From the IMG/VR virus record IMGVR_UViG_3300042090_000851, positions 1 through 37,275 of that record: a stretch of 37,275 bases of DNA. One strand, given 5' to 3'. This document shows positions 2,291 to 34,670 of this stretch, piece by piece. The position numbers and the translations under genes are program-made. The notes under the pieces were generated by a model that was not told the origin of the DNA, did not search any database, and saw only the letters and a program-made list of their open reading frames with translations. The DNA is from a virus. Each line of letters starts with the position of its first letter. The first letter of the stretch is position 1.

Positions 2291-3644
2291 ATTTCAGCCA
2301 AGACCGTACCAACGCAATCTATGCAGAGCTTTTGAGGAAGGAAAACTCAAACGATATCTGATCATATGGCCACGACGATCTGGTAAGGATATATGTGCTG
2401 TTGCACTCTTAGTTCGTGCAGCATTGAGGCGTGTTGGTACCTATTTCTATGTGTTTCCAGAGTTCTCATCAGGCAGACGTATCTTATGGGATGGCATTGA
2501 TATTGATGGCCATCGAATCCTACATAAATATATACCAGAAGAGATTGTAGAATCACGCAATGAGCAGCAGATGCGTATTCGTCTTATTAATGGATCACAG
2601 ATTGTCGTACTGGGGTCAGATAACTTTGACTCAACTATTATTGGTACTAACGCTGTAGGCATGATCTTTTCAGAATATGCATTACAAGATTCCCGCGCAT
2701 GGTCTTATGCGATTCCTATTCTCAATGCTTCGAACGGCTGGGCTTTGTTTATATCTACTCCAAGAGGTAAGAACCATCTTTGGGAGTTATATAACGTAGC
2801 TTCAACAACGCCTGGCTGGTTTTGTGAGAAACTAACCATTGATGATACACAACATGTACCAATAGAAGAGATCCAAAAGGAAATAGAATCGGGACAAATG
2901 AGCCAAGATCTCGCTATGCAAGAATGGTGGACATCATTTGAGTTAGGTATTGAGGGATCCTTTTATAGTAAGTATATAGATAATCTTCGTCACAAGGGTC
3001 AGATTTCTTATGTGCCATGGGAGCCATATCATCCTGTAAACACCGCTTGGGACTTAGGTTTTAATGACCCGACTACGATAATCTTCTTTCAGCAAATTGG
3101 AGCGGTAATTCGTATCATAGATTGCTATGAGAATACAAAGAAAGGATTAGATCATTATGCTAAAGTGGTCAAAGAAAAGCCTTATACTTATGGCAAGCAT
3201 ATTGCTCCTCATGATATTGCTGTACATGATCTCGGTACTGGTATATCGCGTTGGAAGACAATGCATGATCTCGGAATCACTTTTATCCGTTACGATACAA
3301 AACAACCTAACATAGAAGATGGCATAGAATGCGTTCGACGCAACCTACCTAAGATGTGGTTTGATGAGAAAGCCTGCGAGCCATTACTCAAAGCACTCGA
3401 GAACTATCGCCAAGAATATGATGTAAAACGTAAGGTTTACAAGACAAATCCTCTACACGACTGGTCGTCACATTGGGCAGACGCGATGAGATATCTTTGT
3501 GTTGGATTGCCTAAAGTTACTAACACTAATGATCCAAAAGCTCTGGAGCAACGGTATAATGAAGCGATGGGATATCAGGGCAATATGCCAGCTATTTTCC
3601 GCACAGACTTGCCGGATTCAGGGCCTGGTGGATTTGGATTTTAG
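2253..3644 (+). CDS. terL: Terminase large subunit (packaging ATPase and nuclease)
   Basis: A 463-aa motor protein that pumps DNA into the prohead and cuts it. The N-terminal ATPase has Q-R-P-Y-Q at 16-20 (adenine-motif-like), a Walker A WPRRSGKD at 39-46, a Walker B IFSEYA with the catalytic E141, and FISTPRGKN at 167-175 as the coupling motif. The RNase H-like nuclease begins at TAWDLGFNDPTT (about 264-275, D267 metal ligand) and ends with HWADAMRYL, the usual last acidic motif. The domain order and length are typical, so the gene looks intact. An upstream GTG at 2241 would add four residues; I prefer ATG 2253. Its first codons overlap the previous gene. Confidence 0.92.
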   Translation: MQLLPETQIKLNKFQPRPYQRNLCRAFEEGKLKRYLIIWPRRSGKDICAVALLVRAALRRVGTYFYVFPEFSSGRRILWDGIDIDGHRILHKYIPEEIVESRNEQQMRIRLINGSQIVVLGSDNFDSTIIGTNAVGMIFSEYALQDSRAWSYAIPILNASNGWALFISTPRGKNHLWELYNVASTTPGWFCEKLTIDDTQHVPIEEIQKEIESGQMSQDLAMQEWWTSFELGIEGSFYSKYIDNLRHKGQISYVPWEPYHPVNTAWDLGFNDPTTIIFFQQIGAVIRIIDCYENTKKGLDHYAKVVKEKPYTYGKHIAPHDIAVHDLGTGISRWKTMHDLGITFIRYDTKQPNIEDGIECVRRNLPKMWFDEKACEPLLKALENYRQEYDVKRKVYKTNPLHDWSSHWADAMRYLCVGLPKVTNTNDPKALEQRYNEAMGYQGNMPAIFRTDLPDSGPGGFGF

Positions 3645-5314: not shown

Positions 5315-5840
5315 ATGGATCAAGAGCTTATTCTGTTTTAAGGTTAAACCAACTATTCCATTTGCTCAGCCTTTATGCGCAATGTGCAAAATATACAAGC
5401 CTATTATAACCAAAGATATGGGCGATGAGTTTTGTTTTACATGCGTAGCAAAAAGAGCAAGGGAAGTTCTTGGTATTCCTCTTGAAGAGAAGCCTCAGAA
5501 GAAATATAGATTAAATCAAAATATTGATATGCCAGTTTCTCCATCAGTTCAAGAAGATCCACGAGTACATGAATCTATTAAACGCACTCGTTCTGCATTC
5601 AAGCAGCAGCAATGTGCAATGGATATGAGAGCAATGAAAAGTCATGCAGCAGAATGCAATGATCCTTGGACTTGTGTAGCAGATCCTTGTTTTGTGATAG
5701 AGCCTGATAAGATTGTGAATAAGCAATTAGCATCGCAAGCAGAGCTTGATCGCTATAATGATATTCGCAAGAAGAATAGGACTCGTTATAAGAAGATGAA
5801 TAAAGTCAGAGCTAGCAAGCATGAAGTGGATATCAGTTAA
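5307..5840 (+). CDS. 177-aa protein with N-terminal zinc ribbon
   Basis: GGAG lies about 7 nt before ATG 5307; the in-frame ATG at 5271 is inside the previous gene. Near the N-terminus CAMC and CFTC, about 20 residues apart, form a likely zinc ribbon. The C-terminal half is basic (KKNRTRYKKMNKVRASKHE) and contains another cysteine group (CNDPWTCVADPC). It may bind nucleic acid. The last 20 bases overlap the next gene. Function unknown. Confidence 0.6.
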   Translation: MFEWIKSLFCFKVKPTIPFAQPLCAMCKIYKPIITKDMGDEFCFTCVAKRAREVLGIPLEEKPQKKYRLNQNIDMPVSPSVQEDPRVHESIKRTRSAFKQQQCAMDMRAMKSHAAECNDPWTCVADPCFVIEPDKIVNKQLASQAELDRYNDIRKKNRTRYKKMNKVRASKHEVDIS

Positions 5841-6039
5841 AGATCAATTGCCTAAAAAAGGTGAATGGGTTTTATTGTTCGATGGAGAAGAATATTTAAT
5901 AGGAAAAATTCCAAGCGGAAAAATCCCAAGCGGAGCTTCAAATACTAATTTTCATGAATGGTATTTAAATTGTTGCACTTCTTGCTGTTTTTCTTTTGGA
6001 GAGGTAACTCATTGGTCAAGATTTAAAGAATGTTCTTGA
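5821..6039 (+). CDS. DUF551 family protein, 72 aa
   Basis: It opens with MKWISVKDQLPKKGEWVLLF and closes with FGEVTHWSRF, the classic DUF551 pattern (W-I-x-V-x-D-x-L-P, V-L-L-F-D, then V-T-H-W). Family members are widespread small phage proteins without known activity. It contains a short in-frame duplication, IPSGK-IPSG, from a repeated 15-nt unit near 5909-5935. It starts within the previous gene and is the last gene before the portal. Confidence 0.75.
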   Translation: MKWISVKDQLPKKGEWVLLFDGEEYLIGKIPSGKIPSGASNTNFHEWYLNCCTSCCFSFGEVTHWSRFKECS

Positions 6040-11621: not shown

Positions 11622-12068
11622 ATGAAAAGATTGGCGTTGATGTTGATAAGCACCAGTTGTTTTGCAATGTTGCGTGATGCTGAGATTGGCATAGTTGATA
11701 ATGAACAAACTGCAGACGAATATTTCTGCCATCTTGCTATGATTGTTTATCGTAAAAAGACCTCCATTGAATGTTCTCCAGAATTGAAGCCTTATATATT
11801 AAGAACTCTGAATTATTCTCGCCATAATGGTGATTCAGTAAAATTTGATCAAATTGATAAGGATCTAACGCGAGAAGACGAGAAATTTCTGATGTCACAA
11901 GTGAATAAAGCAGTGGCATCAGCTCTTAAAGATCAAAAGAATCAGATAGAATCTCGTATTTCTAAAAAGAATGCAGCTTTATATATAGCAGTTTGCGGTT
12001 TGTGCTGCACTGTTATTACCACTGCTATTACGTTAGGATCCACACTTTCAGGAGATTGTCCAAAATGA
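11622..12068 (+). CDS. 148-aa exported protein with C-terminal membrane helix
   Basis: It has a very strong Shine-Dalgarno (CGGAGGTC). The N-terminus is a signal peptide (MKRLALMLISTSCFAML, cleavage after about A15). The middle is charged and helical; residues about 118-145 read SKKNAALYIAVCGLCC followed by an IT-rich hydrophobic stretch, so the C-terminus probably anchors in a membrane. It overlaps the M15 peptidase gene by ATGA, which suggests a lysis function such as a spanin or holin-like partner. That role is inferred from the neighbour only. The hydrophobic tail resembles that of the 4596 product. Confidence 0.6.
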   Translation: MKRLALMLISTSCFAMLRDAEIGIVDNEQTADEYFCHLAMIVYRKKTSIECSPELKPYILRTLNYSRHNGDSVKFDQIDKDLTREDEKFLMSQVNKAVASALKDQKNQIESRISKKNAALYIAVCGLCCTVITTAITLGSTLSGDCPK

Positions 12069-12403
12069 GACTTTCAGAACAGCAAGCAGCATTCGCGCGT
12101 GATGTTGCTAAACTCATTAATTGGATATTCGATAATGGATTTGCAGTTACTTTAGGAGAGGCATTTAGAACTGCTGAACAAGCAGAGATCTATGCTAAAG
12201 AAGGTAAAGGCATCAAAGATAGTCTGCATTGCAAACGATTAGCCATCGATCTATTTTTGTTTGATCATGAAGGGCATTATCTCCAAGATAAAAAAGATTA
12301 CGAAGAGTTTGGTGTTTTCTGGGAGTCTCTCAATCCGCATAATCGTTGGGGAGGTAACTTTCCACGAGTTGATTGCGTACACTTTGAAAGACGTGAAGAA
12401 TAA
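12065..12403 (+). CDS. Peptidase M15-type endolysin (D-Ala-D-Ala or L-Ala-D-Glu peptidase)
   Basis: A compact 112-aa metallopeptidase of the VanY/M15 type. The zinc site is visible: S53-x-H55 followed by D62 (SLHCKRLAIDLF), then RWGGNF at 94-99 and D103-C-V-H106-F-E, with H55, D62 and H106 as ligands. Such enzymes cut peptide bridges in peptidoglycan to free progeny. There is no signal peptide, so it needs a holin or another route. The start is ATG 12065 inside the previous stop; the upstream extension lies in the preceding gene. It is a short member, close to the catalytic domain alone. Its position between scaffold and capsid genes is unusual for a lysin. Confidence 0.85.
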   Translation: MRLSEQQAAFARDVAKLINWIFDNGFAVTLGEAFRTAEQAEIYAKEGKGIKDSLHCKRLAIDLFLFDHEGHYLQDKKDYEEFGVFWESLNPHNRWGGNFPRVDCVHFERREE

Positions 12404-17594: not shown

Positions 17595-20417
17595 ATGCCA
17601 TTAGATAGATTCTTAATTGCGCCATTTAAGACTGGTCAACAGCAAGATGTGAGACCATGGTTGATAATGGATGATGCATTCCAGAAACTTAGTAATGCTT
17701 ATGTGTTCCGAGGAAGAGTCAGAAAACGTCCTGGTTCTTCAGTCATGAATACATCTGTTGATCTCTCAGTCCAACAACTTTATTCACGATTGCGTATAGG
17801 ACTAGGGACTACCGATTCTTCAGGAGATGCTTCAGGAACAGCATCTGGTTACATCTTTCAGACTGGTCAATTGTTTTCCATTGGCGATGAAATATTTACA
17901 GTATCTACTACGGGAACTCCAGCAGATATGCTCATTGCGCCGATTCAAGTAGGAACTACCGATTCTTCAGGGGACGCTTCAGGAACTATTTATGAAGGAG
18001 TTGGTTCTGTAGGAATGGTATTCACCATTGCAGGCTTTACGTATACGGTGGCCATGTCGAGTGGTGCATTAACGCCAGGTGTAGGAGCTCCCGGATCTGG
18101 CACATTTGATTGTGGTTCCGGTGCTTATACATTTACTGGAACAACAGACGATTCTACGATTTATTTAACGGCAGCATCAGACGCAACTTTTAATACTTCT
18201 ACCGGTGCATATACTTTTTCTGATGCATATCCATCAACAAATATCTATTTCTATCCCGCTCTTCCTGTTATGGGATTTGCAACTTATGATTCTGATCTTG
18301 TAGAAGACGAGCCCCTCTTTGCATTCGATACTGAATTTCCTTACCTTTGGGATGCTACTAATCAATATTGGAATAGAGTTGGCACAGCAGTCTGGACTGG
18401 ATCAAATCTCAATTATTTTTGGGCATGCACATGGCGCGGTATAACCAATTATGATTACTATCTTTTTGTCAGTAACTTCAAGATTCCAAGCCTTTCTCCT
18501 TCTGTAACTCCCGATTACATCAAATATTACAATGAATCAGATTTCTATAATCTCAATCCTGTTCTAAATCAAACAACACGACTTGTAACCGCTCTTATGG
18601 TGCAACCATTCAAAGATAGATTATGCGTTTATAACGTCGTTGAATCGACTTCTGGATCTGGAGAATCACAAGGAACTACTGATGGCACAACGGGAAATGT
18701 AACCGTTAATCCAGTTACTGCTTTTAATGGCAATCCTTTTATGGTTGGTGACAACTTTCTAGTGGGAACTACACTTTTTACAGTTACTGATGTCACTACA
18801 AATTCTGATGTTGCGATGCTCGTGAATTCACAAACATCATCAGCAACTGCTCCCACTTCTACCGGCACCTTTAATGGCACTACAGGCAAGCTCGTAATCA
18901 CCGGTAACGGAACGAATTTAAATGCTCCCGTGTATTATATATCTGTAGGAACTCCTACTGCCTATCGTCAATATTGGAATCGTTTAAGATTCTCTCAGAA
19001 TGGAACGCCAGTCTCCTCAAATCCATCATATCCTACTGCAACTAATGCATGGCTTGATAGCATTCCAGGACTTGGTGGCTATATTGATGCTCCAACTAAA
19101 GAAGCGATCGTCAGTGGAGAATATATTAAAGATCGATGGATAGTTTATTTTGAGACATCTACTTGGGAACAAGTTTATACATTCAACCAAGTATTACCGT
19201 TTGTTTGGCAAAAAATTAATACTGAACTTGGTGCAGTATCTCCATTCTCAACAGTTCCATTCGATAAAGTGGTTATTGGTATCGGTGATGTTGGTGTTCA
19301 TGCTTGTAATGGTTCAAACGTAGAACGTGTTGATGATCTGATTCCTGATAGCATCTTTAATTTTGCTAAGGAAAATGGCGGGAATCTCAGAGTCTGGGGA
19401 GTGCGTGATTATTATACTGAAATGATTTACTGGGCATTCCAAGAAGAAACGCGTTATACACCATTCAATAATAAATTATTGGCTTATAACTATAAAACTC
19501 AATCATGGGCATTTTTTGATGATGCAATTACTGCATTTGGCACTTTCTATAATAGCACCAATATAACTTGGGCATCATCAACATTCTCATGGGAATCATC
19601 CTATCAGCAATGGAATACTGGTAGTATTCAGCAGCAATTTAGGCAGGTAATAGCAGGCAATCAGCAAGGCTATACATTTCTTATTCAGCGTGATGAAGGA
19701 GCAAATGCACCATCATTACAGATCACTAATCTCGTTATCAATGCTCCAACTTCTTATTTTACTGTTACTTCTTATAATCATTGCCTTGGTTACGGTCAAT
19801 ATGTCTATATTGAGAATTGTACTGGCGTTACTGGCATTAATAATACCGTATTCCCGGTTGGCATTGTTATCGATGAGAATACTATTAGATTCTATGCTCG
19901 AGCAGACCAATCATTTGGAGGAACCTATGCAGGCGGCGGCACTATAAGACGCGTATCTCAAATAGATATCCTGACTAAGCAATATAACTTCTATATTAAA
20001 GAAGGCAGAAATGCACTGATTAATAAAGTTGATTTCCAGGTAGATAGAACTTCTGAGAATCCAGATGGAGTTCCTAATGGTGTTACCGTGGATTATTATA
20101 TTTCTACTGCATATCAATCATCTTTGAATGCAGGAGCTCCGCAACCAGGAGGAACGGGTACTATAACTGGAACTGGTATATTAGAAACTACGCCATATCC
20201 TGCATCGCCGTATACTGATGAAACATTCCAATATCCTCTTGAAGATATTCAAACTCAATTATGGCATCCAGTATATACCTGGGCTGATGGAGAATTCATT
20301 CAATTGCATATATATCTATCTCCCTATCAAATTCTTGATATTGATGTTGCATGGGCAGATTTCCAAATGCATAGCATGGTATTTTATACTCAGCCAAGTT
20401 CAAGCAGATTGCAATAA
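17595..20417 (+). CDS. Large tail protein (nozzle or stabilisation-like)
   Basis: AGGGAG lies 7 nt before ATG 17595. The 940-aa protein opens with a segment typical of large podovirus tail proteins (YVFRGRVRKRPGSSVM), then carries three related beta modules (about 75-115, 120-210, 355-450), each with D-G/T-T-G repeats and a phrase like GDEIFTVSTTG or GDNFLVGTTLFTVT. The first two start with the nearly identical GTTDSSGDASGT. The C-terminal half is aromatic and beta-rich, ending QMHSMVFYTQPSSSRLQ. It is the largest structural protein apart from the adhesin and probably builds the tail hub or nozzle. The exact family is not certain. Confidence 0.65.
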   Translation: MPLDRFLIAPFKTGQQQDVRPWLIMDDAFQKLSNAYVFRGRVRKRPGSSVMNTSVDLSVQQLYSRLRIGLGTTDSSGDASGTASGYIFQTGQLFSIGDEIFTVSTTGTPADMLIAPIQVGTTDSSGDASGTIYEGVGSVGMVFTIAGFTYTVAMSSGALTPGVGAPGSGTFDCGSGAYTFTGTTDDSTIYLTAASDATFNTSTGAYTFSDAYPSTNIYFYPALPVMGFATYDSDLVEDEPLFAFDTEFPYLWDATNQYWNRVGTAVWTGSNLNYFWACTWRGITNYDYYLFVSNFKIPSLSPSVTPDYIKYYNESDFYNLNPVLNQTTRLVTALMVQPFKDRLCVYNVVESTSGSGESQGTTDGTTGNVTVNPVTAFNGNPFMVGDNFLVGTTLFTVTDVTTNSDVAMLVNSQTSSATAPTSTGTFNGTTGKLVITGNGTNLNAPVYYISVGTPTAYRQYWNRLRFSQNGTPVSSNPSYPTATNAWLDSIPGLGGYIDAPTKEAIVSGEYIKDRWIVYFETSTWEQVYTFNQVLPFVWQKINTELGAVSPFSTVPFDKVVIGIGDVGVHACNGSNVERVDDLIPDSIFNFAKENGGNLRVWGVRDYYTEMIYWAFQEETRYTPFNNKLLAYNYKTQSWAFFDDAITAFGTFYNSTNITWASSTFSWESSYQQWNTGSIQQQFRQVIAGNQQGYTFLIQRDEGANAPSLQITNLVINAPTSYFTVTSYNHCLGYGQYVYIENCTGVTGINNTVFPVGIVIDENTIRFYARADQSFGGTYAGGGTIRRVSQIDILTKQYNFYIKEGRNALINKVDFQVDRTSENPDGVPNGVTVDYYISTAYQSSLNAGAPQPGGTGTITGTGILETTPYPASPYTDETFQYPLEDIQTQLWHPVYTWADGEFIQLHIYLSPYQILDIDVAWADFQMHSMVFYTQPSSSRLQ
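17811..17982 (+). repeat. Two near-identical direct repeats in the large tail gene
   Basis: ACTACCGATTCTTCAGG occurs near 17816 and again near 17954, each continuing with GA-GCTTCAGGAAC and flanked by further similarity. They encode TTDSSGDASGT twice, marking a duplicated beta module. Confidence 0.7.
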
Positions 20418-20960
20418 TCATTGCTTCAGATACTCAATGACCATATAGGTATTGATGAAATCAGAATAATCTATGCCAGTAGTAATGGTTATAATGGTAG
20501 TACCAACATCGACTTGAATATTCAGATCAAGGGTTGGTGAAGAATATGGCAACGGAATCATTTTAGTAGCGGCAGTATTTGTAGCAGCGCCATAAATATG
20601 CGTTGCCGTGAATCCCTGATCAACTTGAATGTTATGTACTACTGACTTGGCTCCTGCATTGGGCAATGCACCAAAATTGACCACCATACGATATGTTTGG
20701 CGATAAGTAGGCGTCTGACCATTCTGTGAATTATTAGGAAAATATAATTGTCCTGTCATGAATTCATACAATGGATAATAACCGGTTTCTTTTATGTTTA
20801 AATTCAACGCCATATTATTAACATTTTGATATAGACGAACTAAAAGTTCCTTGAATCGATCGCTATTAATATCGGTAGAATATAGTTCTGAAACATCCCA
20901 TATATTGGTTGTCGCTATAAATGAGCCAATATCTGAGAGGAAATTAGTTGATCCTGCCAT
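20418..20960 (-). CDS. 180-aa structural-type protein on the minus strand
   Basis: Read leftward, with AAAAGGAATAGC before the ATG. Its stop abuts the stop of the large tail gene with no gap. The protein has a helical start (FKELLVRLYQNVNNMALNLN), then a beta-rich body (YRMVVNFGALPNAGAK, then VVHNIQVDQGFTATHIYGAA) like small phage tail or fibre proteins. It is an isolated inversion inside an otherwise rightward morphogenesis block. It must have its own promoter, probably in the 81-nt divergent gap. Function inferred as virion-associated only. Confidence 0.65.
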   Translation of the reverse strand: MAGSTNFLSDIGSFIATTNIWDVSELYSTDINSDRFKELLVRLYQNVNNMALNLNIKETGYYPLYEFMTGQLYFPNNSQNGQTPTYRQTYRMVVNFGALPNAGAKSVVHNIQVDQGFTATHIYGAATNTAATKMIPLPYSSPTLDLNIQVDVGTTIITITTGIDYSDFINTYMVIEYLKQ

Positions 20961-21041
20961 GCTATTCCTTTTGTTTAGGATTTTTTATATAACATAGTAA
21001 GATGATACTGAGAAAATTGATAATATATTTTAGGAGATAGT
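20961..21041. promoter_or_regulatory. Divergent intergenic region, probable back-to-back promoters
   Basis: An AT-rich 81-base gap between two genes that point apart. GATAATATATTTT lies just before the AGGAGATAGT site of the rightward gene, and AT-rich hexamers near TTTTTTATATAAC could serve the leftward one. No clear -35 boxes were identified. Confidence 0.4.
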
Positions 21042-21800
21042 ATGGCTACAAATTGGAGAAGAAACCTGGGTTCCACATTGGGAACTCTTGGTGGTGGTTT
21101 GGTAGGGGGCCTTGCCGGTATTCCTGGAGGTCCAGCTGGTATTGCAGCCGGCGCTGGCATAGGGGCTGGCTTAGGTGGAAAAGCTGGAAACTATTTTCAA
21201 AACGTGGCCAATAGTAATCGTAGTAATCTCCCACAAAACAATGGTATCTCAGCTCAACCTACTACTTTTCCGGGAGGTCCTAATTCTCCGGCTATCACTG
21301 CTCAAAATTTGGGCGAAGAAGGAAATGCCTTATTCTTCAATAGATTTAATCCTCAGCAACAACAACTGATGGCAATACTCGGACAATTAGGTCAACAAGG
21401 ATTGCAGGGAAATAACTTTTCGTTTGGCCCAATTGAACAGCAAGCACGTCAAGGATTTGCCCAACAAACGGTACCTTCTATTGCAGAGCGCTTTTCTGGC
21501 CTTGGAGCACAAAAGTCATCAGCATTTGGACAGCAATTAGGACAAGCAGGCGCTGGATTAGAATCGGATTTGGCTGCTCAAAAGCAACTTTATAATATGA
21601 ATCTATCTGGATTATTTCAAAATTTAGCTAGTCTTGGACTCACTCCGCAATATGAAAGTATTTTCTCTCCTAAGCAGCCATCATTTGGTCAATCGTTAGG
21701 AACCAATATAGCCGGTCCAGCAGCGCAAGCGCTCACTACTCTTGGAGGTTTATATTTAATGAATAAATATGGTCAGCAATCACAATTGCCTAAACCTTAA
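21042..21800 (+). CDS. Internal virion (ejection) protein with glycine zipper
   Basis: AGGAGATAGT precedes the ATG. A 252-aa protein with an N-terminal Gly/Ala zipper (TLGTLGGGLVGGLAGIPGGP, then AGAGIGAGLGGKAG, about 11-50) able to insert in membranes, then a Q-, G- and N-rich tail (FNPQQQQLMAILGQLGQQGL). Podovirus ejection proteins, such as the P22 gp7/gp20/gp16 set, leave the head to form a channel across the host envelope. The next gene encodes a second protein of the same sort. Assignment rests on composition and position. Confidence 0.7.
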   Translation: MATNWRRNLGSTLGTLGGGLVGGLAGIPGGPAGIAAGAGIGAGLGGKAGNYFQNVANSNRSNLPQNNGISAQPTTFPGGPNSPAITAQNLGEEGNALFFNRFNPQQQQLMAILGQLGQQGLQGNNFSFGPIEQQARQGFAQQTVPSIAERFSGLGAQKSSAFGQQLGQAGAGLESDLAAQKQLYNMNLSGLFQNLASLGLTPQYESIFSPKQPSFGQSLGTNIAGPAAQALTTLGGLYLMNKYGQQSQLPKP

Positions 21801-21809
21801 AGGAATATC

Positions 21810-23162
21810 ATGCCTCAAATATTAAATAAATATTCTTTTGGGTCAGATTTAGGGGCAGCATTAGGTTCAGGCTTAGGAAGCGGTCTTCAATATCTTGCTC
21901 AGAATAAAATAAACCAAATGACTCGCGCAAATGAGATGAATCAATATTCTAATCTCTTACAGCAAAGTGGATTAGATCCTCGTGATGCAAATGTTCTTGC
22001 ATATCATGCGGTAAGTAATCCTGAGCAATTTCATCATATATTAGAACAATATAGCCCACGGCAAGCAATCAATCAGCAAGCTACAGAAGTTCCTCAATAT
22101 CAACAAGGATTGCAACAATTAGAACAGCAGCCTGCACAAGCAGCCTATAGGCAACCAACTCCTGAACAAGCAATGCAATTACAGAATCTGTTTAAAGGAC
22201 TAGGACAACCTCAGCAAGAGCCATCAGGCTTAGGAGAAGGCGTTGATCTGTTACGCAAGTCTGCCGCAAGTGAACTATTGAAAACTGCAGTAGGAAAGCA
22301 ACCAGAAGAACAACTGCCTCAAATTAGACAACCACAACCACAAGTTGTTCCACAGGTAGTTCCTCCTATTCAACAGCCACAACAACCAGTTGAATTTACA
22401 CCACAACAAATAGAAGAGCAGATTCATCCTTTATTAGCAAAAAGAAAAGCTCTTGAAGAAAAAGCGGCTCGTGAAAGAGATAAAGAGGAAAAGGCAAATC
22501 AAACTGCTATTAATAAAGCAGAAAAGCCTTACGTCGATAAGATTACTGCTTATAAGGAAGCTGCTGATGATGCAGATAAACGTCTTAATAAGATGGAAAA
22601 TCTTGTTAAGAAAGGAAGCCTCCCTTATTCCGGATATTATAATACTCTCAAATCATTAGAAGAACATGTTACTCCATTAACAGGAGCTGGCGCTGGAGCA
22701 GCTATTGGAGGAGCATTAGGATTAGCCGGAGGACCATTAGCTCCCGCATCTGCTACAATTGGTAGCGCTATTGGCGGTGGTATAGGAGCTGCTGTTACTC
22801 CTATAGTTCAAGTACTAAAATCATTCCAGCGAGGAATCACTGCTACTGATACTGAAGAATTTGAAAAACTATCAAATGACTTTATAAGAAATGCAAAGAC
22901 AATATTCGGATCAAGAATTACAGACGCAGATCTACGGGCTTTTATGGCTACATTGCCAACTTTATCTCAAACAGATGAAGGAAAACTTGCAGTCATAAAA
23001 AACATGAAATCATTTAATAAGGCAGCTCAGGTTCGATATAAAGCAATGCGTGATGTAATCAAAGATAATGGCAATAAAATACCGGCCGATATTCAAGGAT
23101 TAGTGGAAGAGCGAGCAAAGCCAGAATTAGACAGAATAGCTTCTGACTTTGAAGCGGTTTAG
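21810..23162 (+). CDS. Second internal virion (ejection) protein
   Basis: AAAGGAATATC precedes the ATG. 450 aa: a helical N-terminus (ANEMNQYSNLLQQSGLDPRD), a long Gln/Pro-rich stretch (about 85-200), a charged coiled coil (RKALEEKAARERDKEEKANQ, about 212-275), a glycine zipper (GAGAGAAIGGALGLAGG, then ATIGSAIGGGIGAAVTP, about 292-332) and a helical C-terminus. This suits a membrane-crossing ejection protein. Its stop overlaps the stop of the leftward gene by 3 nt. Confidence 0.7.
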   Translation: MPQILNKYSFGSDLGAALGSGLGSGLQYLAQNKINQMTRANEMNQYSNLLQQSGLDPRDANVLAYHAVSNPEQFHHILEQYSPRQAINQQATEVPQYQQGLQQLEQQPAQAAYRQPTPEQAMQLQNLFKGLGQPQQEPSGLGEGVDLLRKSAASELLKTAVGKQPEEQLPQIRQPQPQVVPQVVPPIQQPQQPVEFTPQQIEEQIHPLLAKRKALEEKAARERDKEEKANQTAINKAEKPYVDKITAYKEAADDADKRLNKMENLVKKGSLPYSGYYNTLKSLEEHVTPLTGAGAGAAIGGALGLAGGPLAPASATIGSAIGGGIGAAVTPIVQVLKSFQRGITATDTEEFEKLSNDFIRNAKTIFGSRITDADLRAFMATLPTLSQTDEGKLAVIKNMKSFNKAAQVRYKAMRDVIKDNGNKIPADIQGLVEERAKPELDRIASDFEAV

Positions 23163-23362
23163 TGGGCAAATATAATAATAAAGATTCCTAATTGAAGAAG
23201 GAGTAAGATTTCAATATTCTTTATTCTTTCTTCAATTGTTCTTTCATCCTTATAATTTTGTGCATTTAATACTGCATTTCTATACATCTTGCGAATTCCG
23301 TATCCAATAAGGGCACATATAAATAAAAAGAATGATATCCAAAATACGTCTGAAAAATTCAT
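23159..23362 (-). CDS. 67-aa two-helix membrane protein
   Basis: Leftward, GGAGAAACT before the ATG. Two hydrophobic helices (FWISFFLFICALIGYGI, residues 7-23, and ILLLLQLGIFIIIF at the end) flank a charged linker (NAQNYKDERTIEERIKN). It could be a holin-like or membrane-remodelling protein. Last gene of a four-gene minus-strand cassette. Confidence 0.6.
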   Translation of the reverse strand: MNFSDVFWISFFLFICALIGYGIRKMYRNAVLNAQNYKDERTIEERIKNIEILLLLQLGIFIIIFAH

Positions 23363-23371
23363 AGTTTCTCC

Positions 23372-23656
23372 CTAAATACTAACTTCTACTTTTAGTTTCC
23401 AGACTTTTACTGGCGCTTTTCTATACTTATTAAGATCAATATTATTCAGCTCAGGAATAGATTCATAATCTACAGGCCCTAATCTTGTCTCTAGATAGTA
23501 ACTTAAGCCACCATAGCTATAAGGCTTATAATCAGATAGATCTCGTAACTCAAGAGCAATTTGATGCTCTTTCTTCTCTAATGCCAATCGCTCTTGCGTA
23601 ATGTTATAGAGTTCTTTTGCCTTTGATAGCCAGATTGAATTGTCCCTATTTTCCAT
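23372..23656 (-). CDS. 94-aa coiled-coil hypothetical protein
   Basis: GGGGGG lies before the ATG on the minus strand. The N-terminal half is a charged helix (LYNITQERLALEKKEHQIAL), likely a coiled coil; the rest is a polar alpha/beta segment with several tyrosines. Function unknown. Between the ribbon-helix-helix gene and the membrane protein gene of the cassette. Confidence 0.6.
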   Translation of the reverse strand: MENRDNSIWLSKAKELYNITQERLALEKKEHQIALELRDLSDYKPYSYGGLSYYLETRLGPVDYESIPELNNIDLNKYRKAPVKVWKLKVEVSI

Positions 23657-23674
23657 AGTGTCCCCCCTGGATAC

Positions 23675-23830
23675 CTATTCGTATTTTTTATCTTTCTTTA
23701 TCTGTTCTAGTACTGATCCAACTATATATTCATTCAGTGTTATTCCCCTCCGTGCTGCTTGCGCCTTAGCTTCTGCATGTACTGCTGCATCGACTACTTT
23801 TACTACCCATCTTTTGTTCTTTATTTCCAT
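23675..23830 (-). CDS. 51-aa ribbon-helix-helix (Arc/HicB-like) DNA-binding protein
   Basis: The frame reads MEIKNKRWVVKVVDAAVHAE, then AKAQAARRGITLNEYIVGSV and a lysine-rich end. This is a classic RHH fold: strand (WVVKVV), helix A (AAVHAEAKAQAARRG) and helix B after the ITLNEYI turn. Such proteins bind operators as dimers and serve as phage repressors or as antitoxins. AAAGGAG lies 6 nt before the ATG, which overlaps the end of the upstream gene. No toxin family is recognisable in the adjacent genes. Confidence 0.75.
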   Translation of the reverse strand: MEIKNKRWVVKVVDAAVHAEAKAQAARRGITLNEYIVGSVLEQIKKDKKYE

Positions 23831-24087
23831 AGTGCTCCTTTATTGTTTCCCACTATAATGATCTTTTCATTGCTGTATTCTATATCCACAGGTACAGCAA
23901 TATCCTTATATGGAATCCAATAAAGAACTTCATCAGACCATATGCGAAATTCATTACTTTTTTCCCATTGTCCTTCGCCCTTGTAATAGGCTAAATGCAT
24001 GTCTCGATCTCTATGATCATATATAAGGCATCTTTCTCCAATTGCAGGAAGAGATCCTTTTGTTCCGTTTGGCTTAATCCATTCCAT
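23821..24087 (-). CDS. 88-aa DUF551-like protein
   Basis: It opens MEWIKPNGTKGSLPAIGERC, then LIYDHRDRDMHLAYYKGEGQW and VLYWIPYKD. W-I at the start, P-x-x-G-E-R-C-L-I-Y and a closing Y-W-x-P resemble the DUF551 layout. First gene of the leftward cassette; its end overlaps the start of the RHH gene, so the two are probably coupled. Function unknown. Confidence 0.6.
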   Translation of the reverse strand: MEWIKPNGTKGSLPAIGERCLIYDHRDRDMHLAYYKGEGQWEKSNEFRIWSDEVLYWIPYKDIAVPVDIEYSNEKIIIVGNNKGALWK

Positions 24088-24167
24088 ATTGCTCCTTGAT
24101 GATTATAGGTATAGTATAGCACCAATTGCACCCAATATCAAGTATATCTTGCTATTTCCTTCTTTAC

Positions 24168-24189
24168 AGGTTTAGACTGGGTAAAAATT
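24168..24189 (+). promoter_or_regulatory. 22-nt control motif, copy 1
   Basis: AGGTTTAGAC-TGGGTAAAAATT lies in the 123-nt divergent gap before the fibre operon. A second copy at 34754-34775, in another divergent gap, matches at 19 of 22 positions. Both copies face the rightward gene. Possibly an operator or promoter element. Confidence 0.55.
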
Positions 24190-24210
24190 ATAACTCTTAA
24201 GGAGAAAAAG

Positions 24211-25329
24211 ATGGCAATTCGGCAAAGAACACGATCATTAGTCGGTTACGGCATCGACAATGCGCTTCAATCATTGGCGCCTCAACCTATTATAGCCAAC
24301 CGAGCTCCAACCACCTCTGATACAGCCCCTCTGGGCGCGCTCTGGGTGTGGCCGGCACAAGATGAAGCATGGATTTTAGTGAGCAATGCTAATGCAACTG
24401 CTACTTGGAATCTTATAGAATCTTCTGGTGGCGCTGGTGTATTTAGTTCACTTTTAGTTAACCCAGGTCCGGTGACCACCCAAGGTACTGGCGCGGTGAA
24501 TATCTCTGCTGACGCGGTAGCTACTACTATTAACGTAGGTACTGGCGCTGCCGTTAAAACTCTTACTTTGGGTTCACAAACGGGCGCAAGTGTAACTACT
24601 ATTTATGGTGGCTCTACAGGTGGTATGCTTATAGAAACTGGTAGTGGAGGAGATATTGTTATCGATTCTGGAACTGGTGAAATTGATATATCTACTGATG
24701 CTGCTGCAAATACAGTTAAAATTGCTACTGGCGCCGCAGCTAAGGCTCTTACTTTAGGTTCCCTTAATACAACATCAGCTACTACCATCAATGCAGGAAG
24801 TGGGAGCTTAACGCTTGCTGCTGGTGTTAATACTATTAACATCGCTAATGATGCTACCACTTCAACCGTGAACGTTGGTACTGGCGCAGGAGCTAAAACG
24901 CTCAATCTTGGTTCTGTAAATACTACTGCTACTACTGCAATAAAATCAGGCACTGGTGGCATTAGTTTGGCTAGTGGATCTACTACTCCTGGTTCAGTAA
25001 CAATCACTCCTATAACCGGAACTGTTGCAGAAGGCGGTACAGATACTGTTACTGCAAACTCTCGTGTGATTTATGCTACGTATACTGGTTATACCACTGC
25101 TAATTCTGGTGGAACTCAAGTATTCAAAGTTGCATCATCTCTCATTACGACCACTTCAGCAGTTCATGTTACGGTTACTAACCTGAATACTTCTGGGAAT
25201 GGCGCATTCTTGACCGTGACTGGTATTATTCAAGGTTCTGGTTTATTGACCATTAACACTGCTAATAATGGCGCAGGCGCTTTAGGTGCAGGTGATACTG
25301 TGATTATCTCTGTATGGGTCATTAACTAA
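24211..25329 (+). CDS. Tail fibre protein with beta-helix-like repeats
   Basis: AAGGAG precedes the ATG. The 372-aa protein has an N-terminal virion-attachment-like segment (APTTSDTAPLGALWVWPAQD, then AWILVSNANATATW). It then has at least four repeats of about 45 residues with the phrase ATTINVGTGAAVKTLTLGS or STVNVGTGAGAKTLNLGS (about 95-260), typical of trimeric beta-helical fibre shafts, and a compact C-terminal beta domain. It likely forms a shaft that reaches the host surface. It shares attachment-segment style with the protein at 29271. Confidence 0.8.
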   Translation: MAIRQRTRSLVGYGIDNALQSLAPQPIIANRAPTTSDTAPLGALWVWPAQDEAWILVSNANATATWNLIESSGGAGVFSSLLVNPGPVTTQGTGAVNISADAVATTINVGTGAAVKTLTLGSQTGASVTTIYGGSTGGMLIETGSGGDIVIDSGTGEIDISTDAAANTVKIATGAAAKALTLGSLNTTSATTINAGSGSLTLAAGVNTINIANDATTSTVNVGTGAGAKTLNLGSVNTTATTAIKSGTGGISLASGSTTPGSVTITPITGTVAEGGTDTVTANSRVIYATYTGYTTANSGGTQVFKVASSLITTTSAVHVTVTNLNTSGNGAFLTVTGIIQGSGLLTINTANNGAGALGAGDTVIISVWVIN

Positions 25330-25358
25330 CTTATAGAAGCCCCCCTTCTATTCCTTAC

Positions 25359-25389
25359 AGCCTCCTAGTAATCTCATGCCTAGGAGGCT
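25359..25389. other. Perfect 10-bp inverted repeat between fibre genes
   Basis: AGCCTCCTAG (25359-25368) and CTAGGAGGCT (25380-25389) form a perfect stem with an 11-nt loop. No T-run follows directly on either strand. It could attenuate transcription or stabilise the end of the fibre mRNA. Confidence 0.65.
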
Positions 25390-25420
25390 ATGCTTAGTAA
25401 AAAAACTTTTAGGAGATTCC

Positions 25421-25633
25421 ATGGAAACCAGTCAAGCACTCGTTCTTAAAGCCACGCGTGGCAACTGTTCGTTCACTCTGATCCTTCCAGTAGGCACTAC
25501 TTGGGCAGATGCAGTCGATGCAACTGCAGAGCTCTATATGCAAGTAGGCGAAATGGCAAAGCAATCAGTGCCTCAAGAGCCGCCTGCAGATCCACAAGAG
25601 CCTTTAGAACCAACGATTGTTGAAGGAAACTAA
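25421..25633 (+). CDS. 70-aa fibre-region accessory protein
   Basis: AGGAGATTCC precedes ATG 25421; an in-frame ATG at 25376 lies within the inverted repeat and has no site. The N-terminal half is a small alpha/beta unit (ALVLKATRGNCSFTLILPVG, then TWADAVDATAELY); the C-terminus is Pro/Glu-rich (PPADPQEPLEP). Possibly a chaperone or linker for fibre assembly. Function unknown. Confidence 0.55.
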   Translation: METSQALVLKATRGNCSFTLILPVGTTWADAVDATAELYMQVGEMAKQSVPQEPPADPQEPLEPTIVEGN

Positions 25634-32106: not shown

Positions 32107-32847
32107 TTATTTGGTACCATTTCTCAACTGCTTGATTTCCCTTATTCTCTTTATTGCAGGGAAATATTTATTTTTTGGAAGATCCGCCAAATTCTGCAAC
32201 TTCAATCCATCCAATATCATTTCGGCGATGTCTGGATATTCAGCGAGTTCGTAGTTTATCTCGTCAAGTTGTTCGGTTGTAATAACTTCTGGAGTATCAT
32301 CTTTTGCGTTGTACTTAGTATTGAGCGCAGTTCCTTTTGCATAGACTTCTCTACTAGTTGCTACAGCTGCTTCGCCATCATCATCTTCATCACCAACAAC
32401 CACACCAACCAACGAAACATAACATACGCGCTTCATATATGTAATTGTTGAAGAGATTGATTGTACGTCATTTTTAGCAGGTACAATGCGCACTTTGGAT
32501 TGAACCCATTCTCCTGATGTATGCATCATCTTGGTGATCAACCATTTACCATCATCAGCATCGATAATCATCTGCATGACTGATAAACCATTCTTGGTTA
32601 ATGCTGGACGTGAAGCTTGCACTACTGACATAAGATCAGCATAAGCACTCTTGAAGTATGGATTATTCTTGTTTTCACCAGCAACTGCAAAGTCAGCCTG
32701 AGCTTTAGCTAAAGCAGTAGCAAGCTCTTTGATCTCCACCGATGAATTTGCCTCAGGTTGCACGATCTTACTCGAGTTGAGTATGTCTATCTTCTTGGAA
32801 AGATCGTTGATCATATCCTGAATTTTAATGAGTTCCATTGTTTCCAT
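32107..32847 (-). CDS. erf-like: Erf family single-strand annealing protein
   Basis: A 246-aa protein with the Erf core: NNPYFKSAYADLMSVVQASR at about 61-80, NGLSVMQ at 86-92, LITKMMHTSGEWVQS at 103-117, then VQSISSTITYMKRVCYVSLV at 128-147 and an acidic DEDDDGEA end. The family (P22 Erf) coats single-stranded DNA and anneals complementary strands, which can circularise terminally redundant genomes or repair ends. The C-terminal 90 residues are variable and acidic. It is the first enzyme-like gene of the leftward operon after two small genes; the RusA-like resolvase lies across the junction. Confidence 0.85.
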   Translation of the reverse strand: METMELIKIQDMINDLSKKIDILNSSKIVQPEANSSVEIKELATALAKAQADFAVAGENKNNPYFKSAYADLMSVVQASRPALTKNGLSVMQMIIDADDGKWLITKMMHTSGEWVQSKVRIVPAKNDVQSISSTITYMKRVCYVSLVGVVVGDEDDDGEAAVATSREVYAKGTALNTKYNAKDDTPEVITTEQLDEINYELAEYPDIAEMILDGLKLQNLADLPKNKYFPAIKRIREIKQLRNGTK

Positions 32848-33649: not shown

Positions 33650-33931
33650 TTACGCACGTTTAACTGATGCGTAATTACAAGCAATGATACTTGCTGTTAA
33701 GACTGCTGGTATTAATACTGGCGCAGCGCTTATTGTTGGCACTGTTACCGTGACTAATCCAAGAGTTTGCATGATTGCCAGACCTACTCCTTGAGGAGCT
33801 ACTGTAGACATTACAGTGGTGTAGATCTTCTTTTCAATAAGTGTTCTCATAGAATCCTCAGGCAGAAATGCATGGGATTGACTGGTCATGATAATGGTTA
33901 GGGCTAGTAGGCCCTTTTTGATATTTAACAT
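33650..33931 (-). CDS. 93-aa exported hydrophobic protein
   Basis: Leftward, AAGGAAATT before the ATG. Signal peptide MLNIKKGLLALTIIMTSQSHA, cut probably after SHA. The mature part contains a long hydrophobic stretch (PTISAAPVLIPAVLTASIIA). It is exported and may reinsert in a membrane. Last gene of a four-gene leftward block of secreted and membrane proteins. Function unknown. Confidence 0.6.
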   Translation of the reverse strand: MLNIKKGLLALTIIMTSQSHAFLPEDSMRTLIEKKIYTTVMSTVAPQGVGLAIMQTLGLVTVTVPTISAAPVLIPAVLTASIIACNYASVKRA

Positions 33932-34190: not shown

Positions 34191-34670
34191 TTAAGCTGGG
34201 CCTGTTGCAACGCCGCCAAGAATACCAAGGCCAAGACCTACGGTATTGCTTGCTGCTTCTACGGGAACTAACAAAGTAGTTTGTAGAGTAGCGAGTGTAA
34301 CTGGATATGCTGGTCCTGTTGCCAATGCTGCTACATGCATAAGTATTTGTGCAGTGCCATGAACAAGAATCTTGCCAGTCCAGAAACCGATAGTTGCTCC
34401 AAGAGCTCCACCACCATTGAGCGGTGCGCCAAGGTGCAATGCATAGTCTTCGCTATTATTAAGCTTAGCAAGCTTTAATGTAGCACCAGCTGCAGCAAGC
34501 TTAGCAAGTTTAACGTTATCAATACCACGTAGTTCTTTATCGATGAATGCACGTTCGATTTTGGTGTTATCAACAAAGAAATCATTTCCTTTGTGAGTGA
34601 GTTGCATTGCATTCATAGATGCGCATGCAATCATAGTTAAAGCTAGAATAGCTTTACGAATTTGTAACAC
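34191..34670 (-). CDS. 159-aa exported protein
   Basis: It starts at GTG 34670 with AGGAG 7 nt before. A signal peptide (MLQIRKAILALTMIACASMNAMQ), cut probably after NA. The mature part has a polar start, then a Gly/Ala-rich hydrophobic end (NGGGALGATIGFWTGKI, later VGLGLGILGGVATGPA). It is probably periplasmic or membrane-inserting. First gene of the leftward secreted block. No family recognised. Confidence 0.65.
   Translation of the reverse strand: MLQIRKAILALTMIACASMNAMQLTHKGNDFFVDNTKIERAFIDKELRGIDNVKLAKLAAAGATLKLAKLNNSEDYALHLGAPLNGGGALGATIGFWTGKILVHGTAQILMHVAALATGPAYPVTLATLQTTLLVPVEAASNTVGLGLGILGGVATGPA

Follow-up and report, generated by a model that had tools for sequence, protein, structure and literature searches.

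A clade-wide minus-strand island beside the fibre genes of an uncultured phage, with a possible role in exclusion

What is the function of four small genes that run against the late genes of a phage, at a site between a presumed ejection gene and the first fibre gene? The question is raised by IMG/VR record IMGVR_UViG_3300042090_000851, from an uncultured phage, of which all 37,275 bases were analysed and are referred to here as the window. The first and last 98 bases of the window are identical, so that the genome is probably complete. It encodes a portal protein (phrog_156), a head protein (phrog_1357) and TerL, as well as RusA, an endolysin and an ERF annealing protein. The portal protein is distantly like those of KPP25 and Bcep22-type phages, and the phage belongs to a different clade from P22. 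The island is made up of four minus-strand ORFs at 23159-24087, and all four ORFs listed in a preliminary description of this DNA are present between the late gene for a 450-aa protein and the fibre genes. The island and its surroundings contain the following features.

21810-23162, plus strand: 450-aa late protein, a presumed ejection protein by position; convergent neighbour of the island
23159-23362, minus strand: last island gene, 67 aa, two membrane helices predicted from hydropathy
23372-23656, minus strand: 94-aa protein, by profiles and model a stand-alone C-terminal module of YqaJ-type phage exonucleases
23675-23830, minus strand: RHH protein, 51 aa (Pfam, profile and model), a presumed autorepressor; overlaps the first gene
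23821-24087, minus strand: first island gene, 88 aa, remotely DUF551-like cargo (weak match to a clade-built profile)
24113-24141, minus strand: promoter-like site in the gap upstream of the island (TTGATA, 17 nt, TATACT, with TG before the second hexamer)
24211-25329, plus strand: first fibre-like gene, with a conserved N-terminus; divergent neighbour of the island

Read from the promoter side, the gene order is 88 aa, RHH (51 aa), 94 aa and 67 aa, the last with the two membrane helices. Spacing is tight: neighbouring genes overlap or stand no more than 18 bases apart, and the 67-aa and 450-aa genes share 4 bases where their ends meet. An exact Shine-Dalgarno match of 4 to 6 nt precedes three of these genes, and the fourth has a G-rich stretch only. 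Over 16 islands, an exact match is found for 31 of 44 genes, compared to 163 of 671 ATGs on the minus strand of the window; the gene lists for this count and for the membrane count given below were picked by eye. The 450-aa neighbour receives no function from Pfam or PHROGs and is presumed to be an ejection protein from its position and a glycine-rich segment.

Both neighbours of the island were used to collect relatives. Eleven contigs were reached through the 450-aa protein and twelve further ones through the N-terminus of the fibre protein, 4 of the 16 fibre loci being already known. An alignment of the 450-aa protein found no relative in a scan of 84,980 genomes, and none was found among cultured phages. 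The first set comprises eight complete intervals, that of the window among them. A set of ten records leaves out L009, a shorter contig with the same ejection protein as L010, and L013, which ends in the ejection gene. The 20 complete intervals do not include G003 and G009, whose contigs stop inside or ahead of the island.

A minus-strand RHH gene lies just before the fibre gene in 19 of these 20 intervals, or in 16 of 17 if the near-copies L052-L055 are merged, which are at least 98.8% identical in the 450-aa protein. It is on the minus strand in all eight complete intervals of the first set. A profile built from these eight sequences and applied to 637 ORFs in the twelve further loci identifies 12 ORFs at E≤1e-4, all of them on the minus strand ahead of the fibre gene, in 11 of the 12 held-out loci (two in L047, none in L057), and no other ORF at this threshold. 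The four-gene cassette of the preliminary description is not an isolated one. The held-out RHH genes, the relatives of the 94-aa protein at the same site and the Shine-Dalgarno matches raise the genes beyond chance, and the block is very probably a real, conserved and separately read unit. The cargo between the RHH gene and the last gene differs in each lineage. Judged from these sequences, the block is a clade-wide island at a fixed site, in which the RHH gene is nearly constant, a membrane protein is usual and the cargo changes. A keyword search of the literature found no description of this island, which is not proof of absence.

The 51-aa protein matches Pfam HicB with 21.7 bits (cut-off, 21) over 23 residues only. 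Its structural model shows a mean pLDDT of 79.7, and the PDB matches in Foldseek include MatP, antitoxins, PutA, Arc and CopG, with a resemblance to antitoxin domains such as Rv0298 and CopASO. The weak E-values (best, 0.088) are expected for a protein of only 51 residues. Together, the Pfam match and the model bear out the earlier naming of this gene product as an RHH DNA-binding protein. The RHH profile gives no match to PDB sequences, and tblastn with the window protein gives none at E≤10 in 50,697 phage records.

The RHH fold and the operon position are shared with the RHH antitoxins HicB, ParD, CopASO and Rv0298. The block might accordingly be read as a toxin-antitoxin or addiction system, with the RHH protein as antitoxin and autorepressor and the membrane peptide as toxin, keeping a non-integrating genome in the cell. 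The likeness of the model to antitoxin domains fits such a system, as do the small, hydrophobic last gene, the ten records in which no integrase was found and a MazE-like gene on the plus strand of the G006 interval. However, none of the eight records searched has a HicA match, the four window proteins belong to no PADLOC family and the four genes include no recognised toxin. Moreover, the supposed toxin forms no conserved family, L051 and L059 keep the RHH gene without a membrane gene, and the ParA-type partition ATPase (PF13614) is found in none of ten records, several of which are fragments. The missing HicA and PADLOC families weaken the idea of an antitoxin paired with a classical toxin, and the toxin-antitoxin reading as a whole is unlikely.

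The promoter-like site, which resembles those of sigma-70, lies in a gap of 123 bp, 25 nt before the first island gene. For the window gap alone, the minus-strand promoter score has a p value of 0.043 against dinucleotide shuffles. In the stricter test relied on here, with dinucleotide shuffles and no TG bonus, the 16 gaps, which are related and therefore not independent trials, give Fisher values of 1e-4 (minus strand) and 0.99 (plus strand). The minus score is above the plus score in 12 of the 16 gaps, with 4 ties (Wilcoxon p, 9e-4). L053-L055 were handled as copies in the promoter tests, the first of which kept L053 and the stricter of which did not, and the start codons of L014 and L048 were chosen by the analyst. 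The value from the first test (Fisher, 1e-11) was set aside, since this test used single-base shuffles and a TG bonus added after the window had been seen. Over positions 20300-25500, promoter-like sites are not enriched (11 found versus 16.5 expected). L008, L011, L050, L051 and L052 show inverted repeats over their promoters that look like possible operators. The operator palindromes reach a Fisher value of 0.015, but the distal control part of the gaps is nearly as good at 0.049, and no operator is therefore claimed.

With a minus-strand promoter-like site of its own, an RHH regulator and a membrane protein, the block agrees at the level of sequence with the separately regulated, moron-like unit of the preliminary description. 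Conservation together with co-expression with structural genes had been named as a sign against such a unit; conservation holds for the site, but the opposite strand and the promoter-like signal speak against joint expression with those genes. The RHH protein could instead mainly control the divergent fibre promoter or another phage promoter, in the manner of Mnt and Arc on ant of P22, with the other genes as passengers. The RHH gene is the most constant part of the island, always adjoins the fibre gene and stands alone in two islands (L051 and L059), all of which suits a regulatory switch. Against this, the same gaps carry no plus-strand promoter signal, no antirepressor candidate has been recognised and membrane genes are over-represented, and a mainly regulatory role is rather unlikely.

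The last minus-strand gene passes a membrane test (19-residue mean hydropathy of at least 1.6) in 14 of 18 islands, whereas 31% of a control set of 532 spurious ORFs, similar in length and contained in long genes, pass it (p, 6e-5). At a stricter cut of 2.0, the values are 11 of 18 islands and 13% of the spurious ORFs. For the window, hydropathy of the 67-aa protein is consistent with the two-helix membrane protein described earlier. A membrane gene is not seen in L051, L057 and L059 and is marginal in G002. The island membrane proteins comprise 36-96 aa, and in most contigs their genes stop only a few bases away from where the preceding plus-strand gene ends; G005, G006 and L047 have a further plus-strand gene or a longer gap in between. 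Pairwise comparison reveals no common family among these proteins (best z, 5.2 of 136 pairs). In 50,697 phage records, tblastn with the window protein gives no hit even at E≤10, and the L053 protein is likewise unmatched in phage records.

A small protein that has one or two membrane helices could also serve in lysis, as a holin or antiholin. The strand of the island is opposite to that of the late genes, however, and the lysis genes apparently lie outside the island. An endolysin-like gene is found at 11993-12403 (plus strand) among the structural genes, and just upstream it is overlapped by 11622-12068 (plus strand), whose product starts with a signal-like sequence and has a membrane helix; these are the probable lysis genes. 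For the island protein, a lysis function is very unlikely.

In L047, a single 90-aa protein encoded at 3360-3632 (minus strand) combines a membrane helix with an RHH domain, and a second RHH gene adjoins it. This fusion is the only direct link between the RHH and membrane parts. Along with the position of the membrane gene after the RHH gene in most islands, it is consistent with a membrane tether, in which the RHH protein would bind phage DNA and the membrane protein would anchor it at the inner membrane, thereby organising replication or entry. A model for this is p16.7 of phi29. The fusion is seen only once, however, and no repeated binding sites were found in the window gap; a tether is quite unlikely. 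In a further version, the RHH and membrane proteins would form one membrane-anchored DNA-binding device, as fused in L047, which would hold the entered genome at the inner membrane and block or sense a second genome at the same entry site, with the exonuclease module as a link to recombination. The chance that this version is right is low.

The 94-aa protein is found in four of ten records searched (G000, G001, G002 and G008), each time in the island, and the relatives in three other records show 29-49% identity at the same site. One relative weakly matched the C-termini of two exonucleases, the RecE-like gp13 of the Bdellovibrio phage phi1422 (E, 0.02) and gp30 of DDSR119 (E, 0.002). At their N-termini, Pfam YqaJ is matched with E-values of 1.5e-18 for phi1422 and, under the cut-off, 0.0038 for DDSR119. 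Profile comparison of the 94-aa protein with the exonuclease C-termini gives probabilities of 96.7 and 95.9, and the 94-aa profile detects the two exonucleases with E-values of 3.5e-11 and 4.6e-12, the next unrelated one of 499 sequences following at 0.23. The model (pLDDT, 85.2) is built from a long helix followed by a beta module and matches predicted phage proteins, one of which is named a predicted endonuclease (E-values of the top three, 1.3e-5 to 4.2e-4). The YqaJ-type exonucleases phi1422 gp13 and DDSR119 gp30 share with it the C-terminal long helix and module and the motif G-x-V-D-Y ... D-L-x-x-Y-R ... W-K, but contain a nuclease domain that the 94-aa protein lacks. By profile and model, the 94-aa protein corresponds to the C-terminal module of YqaJ-type exonucleases, here encoded on its own. 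The "coiled-coil" protein of the preliminary description retains its long helix, to which the model adds a beta module and the profiles a recognisable family. No Pfam domain is detected in the 94-aa protein, and comparison of its profile or model with the PDB yields nothing useful. The YqaJ domain itself is found in none of ten records. Given that the phage encodes an ERF annealing protein at 32107-32847 but no YqaJ exonuclease that could be detected, the 94-aa protein would be cargo, and its docking partners would probably be recombination proteins, either of the phage or of the host.

The 88-aa product of the first gene has no relative in viral contigs or phages. Its earlier label "DUF551-like" stands only in a weakened form: there is no Pfam match at E≤1, PF04448 (DUF551) included, and a DUF551 profile built from these phages gives a weak match (E, 0.015). 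A clear DUF551 gene of the window is located at 5821-6039 (plus strand; match, 5824-6027). Among the eight of the ten records searched for this domain, G001 contains three DUF551 matches and G002 five, and these repeated matches indicate an expansion of the family in these phages.

The changing cargo could reflect a loose accessory slot, a permissive site at which HNH mobile genes and small ORFs gather without a common function. The different cargo of each lineage speaks for such a slot, and so do the HNH genes in G002 and G008 (from sequence) and in L057 (Pfam HNH_3). The RHH gene, strand and order are nevertheless constant across distant lineages and the minus-strand promoter signal recurs, and a slot of this kind is distinctly unlikely.

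The block is best read as an operon that is expressed early and autoregulated by its RHH protein, and whose membrane product acts on the host envelope, most probably to keep out superinfecting phages. Support for the operon is good, whereas its role in exclusion is an inference. Beside the toxin-antitoxin, regulatory and tether readings, exclusion through the membrane protein as the main effect is assigned, by analogy, a probability of roughly 0.42. Here, host polymerase would read the island early after DNA entry, followed by binding of the RHH protein at the island promoter, which would limit expression. Later, plus-strand late transcription would run against the island and turn it down. The membrane protein, placed in the inner membrane, would block the DNA entry of a second phage via its ejection proteins, like SieA of P22. 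The defence or exclusion unit proposed in the preliminary description is plausible for an island of RHH and membrane genes.

Mnt and Arc of P22 are RHH proteins, and Arc structures are among the PDB matches of the RHH model. SieA is larger than the island membrane proteins. The immI/sieA region of this Salmonella phage (mnt, arc, ant and sieA) lies between genes 16 and 9. SieA is described as an inner-membrane protein, with escape mutants mapping to the ejection proteins gp16 and gp20, and sieA is reported in 22 of 66 P22-like phages (PMC10883804). The island has in common with this region a site inside the late region, between an ejection-type gene (here by position) and a receptor-binding gene, putatively separate expression (here a sequence signal), an RHH regulator, a putative membrane exclusion protein and high variability between relatives. 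In contrast to P22, which has ant, no ant or other antirepressor candidate is recognised in the island. Since the window RHH and membrane proteins show no homology to those of P22, the island is classed as analogous in its working to the immI/sieA region rather than as belonging to it.

In its described role, SieA acts in lysogens, whereas neither a tyrosine integrase nor a serine recombinase was found in any of the ten records of this clade; several of these records are fragments, and matching ends are seen only in the window and G006. We accordingly assume no lysogenic role, and the unit may act during infection itself. The missing integrase and HicA weaken the lysogenic and HicBA readings. 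If exclusion is right, phages unrelated in sequence to P22 have set an island of this regulated membrane-protein kind where P22 has its own, next to the ejection genes, which would suggest a general rule for where to seek exclusion genes in short-tailed phages without an integrase. The islands supply over a dozen small membrane proteins, very different from one another, as test candidates, and the C-terminal exonuclease module that stands alone is another peculiarity that can be tested.

Several minor observations concern the islands and the rest of the genome. HNH-type genes are located on the minus strand inside the island of three contigs, at L014:1017-1856, L004:11245-12363 and L057:3436-3807; the last matches Pfam HNH_3, and the other two were read from the sequence. 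A 180-aa protein of the window (20418-20960, minus strand) is encoded opposite to the late genes. Its relatives are on the late-gene strand in eight of nine other records, with G003 as the sole exception among the nine; opposite-strand relatives are recorded for G003, L002 and L049. For this strand switch, no serine recombinase and no clear flanking inverted repeats were found. Two small proteins with signal-peptide-like starts are encoded on the minus strand at 33650-33931 and 34191-34670; a genome scan with the latter gave no relative. Both presumably resemble proteins of Dependentiae (Babeliae).
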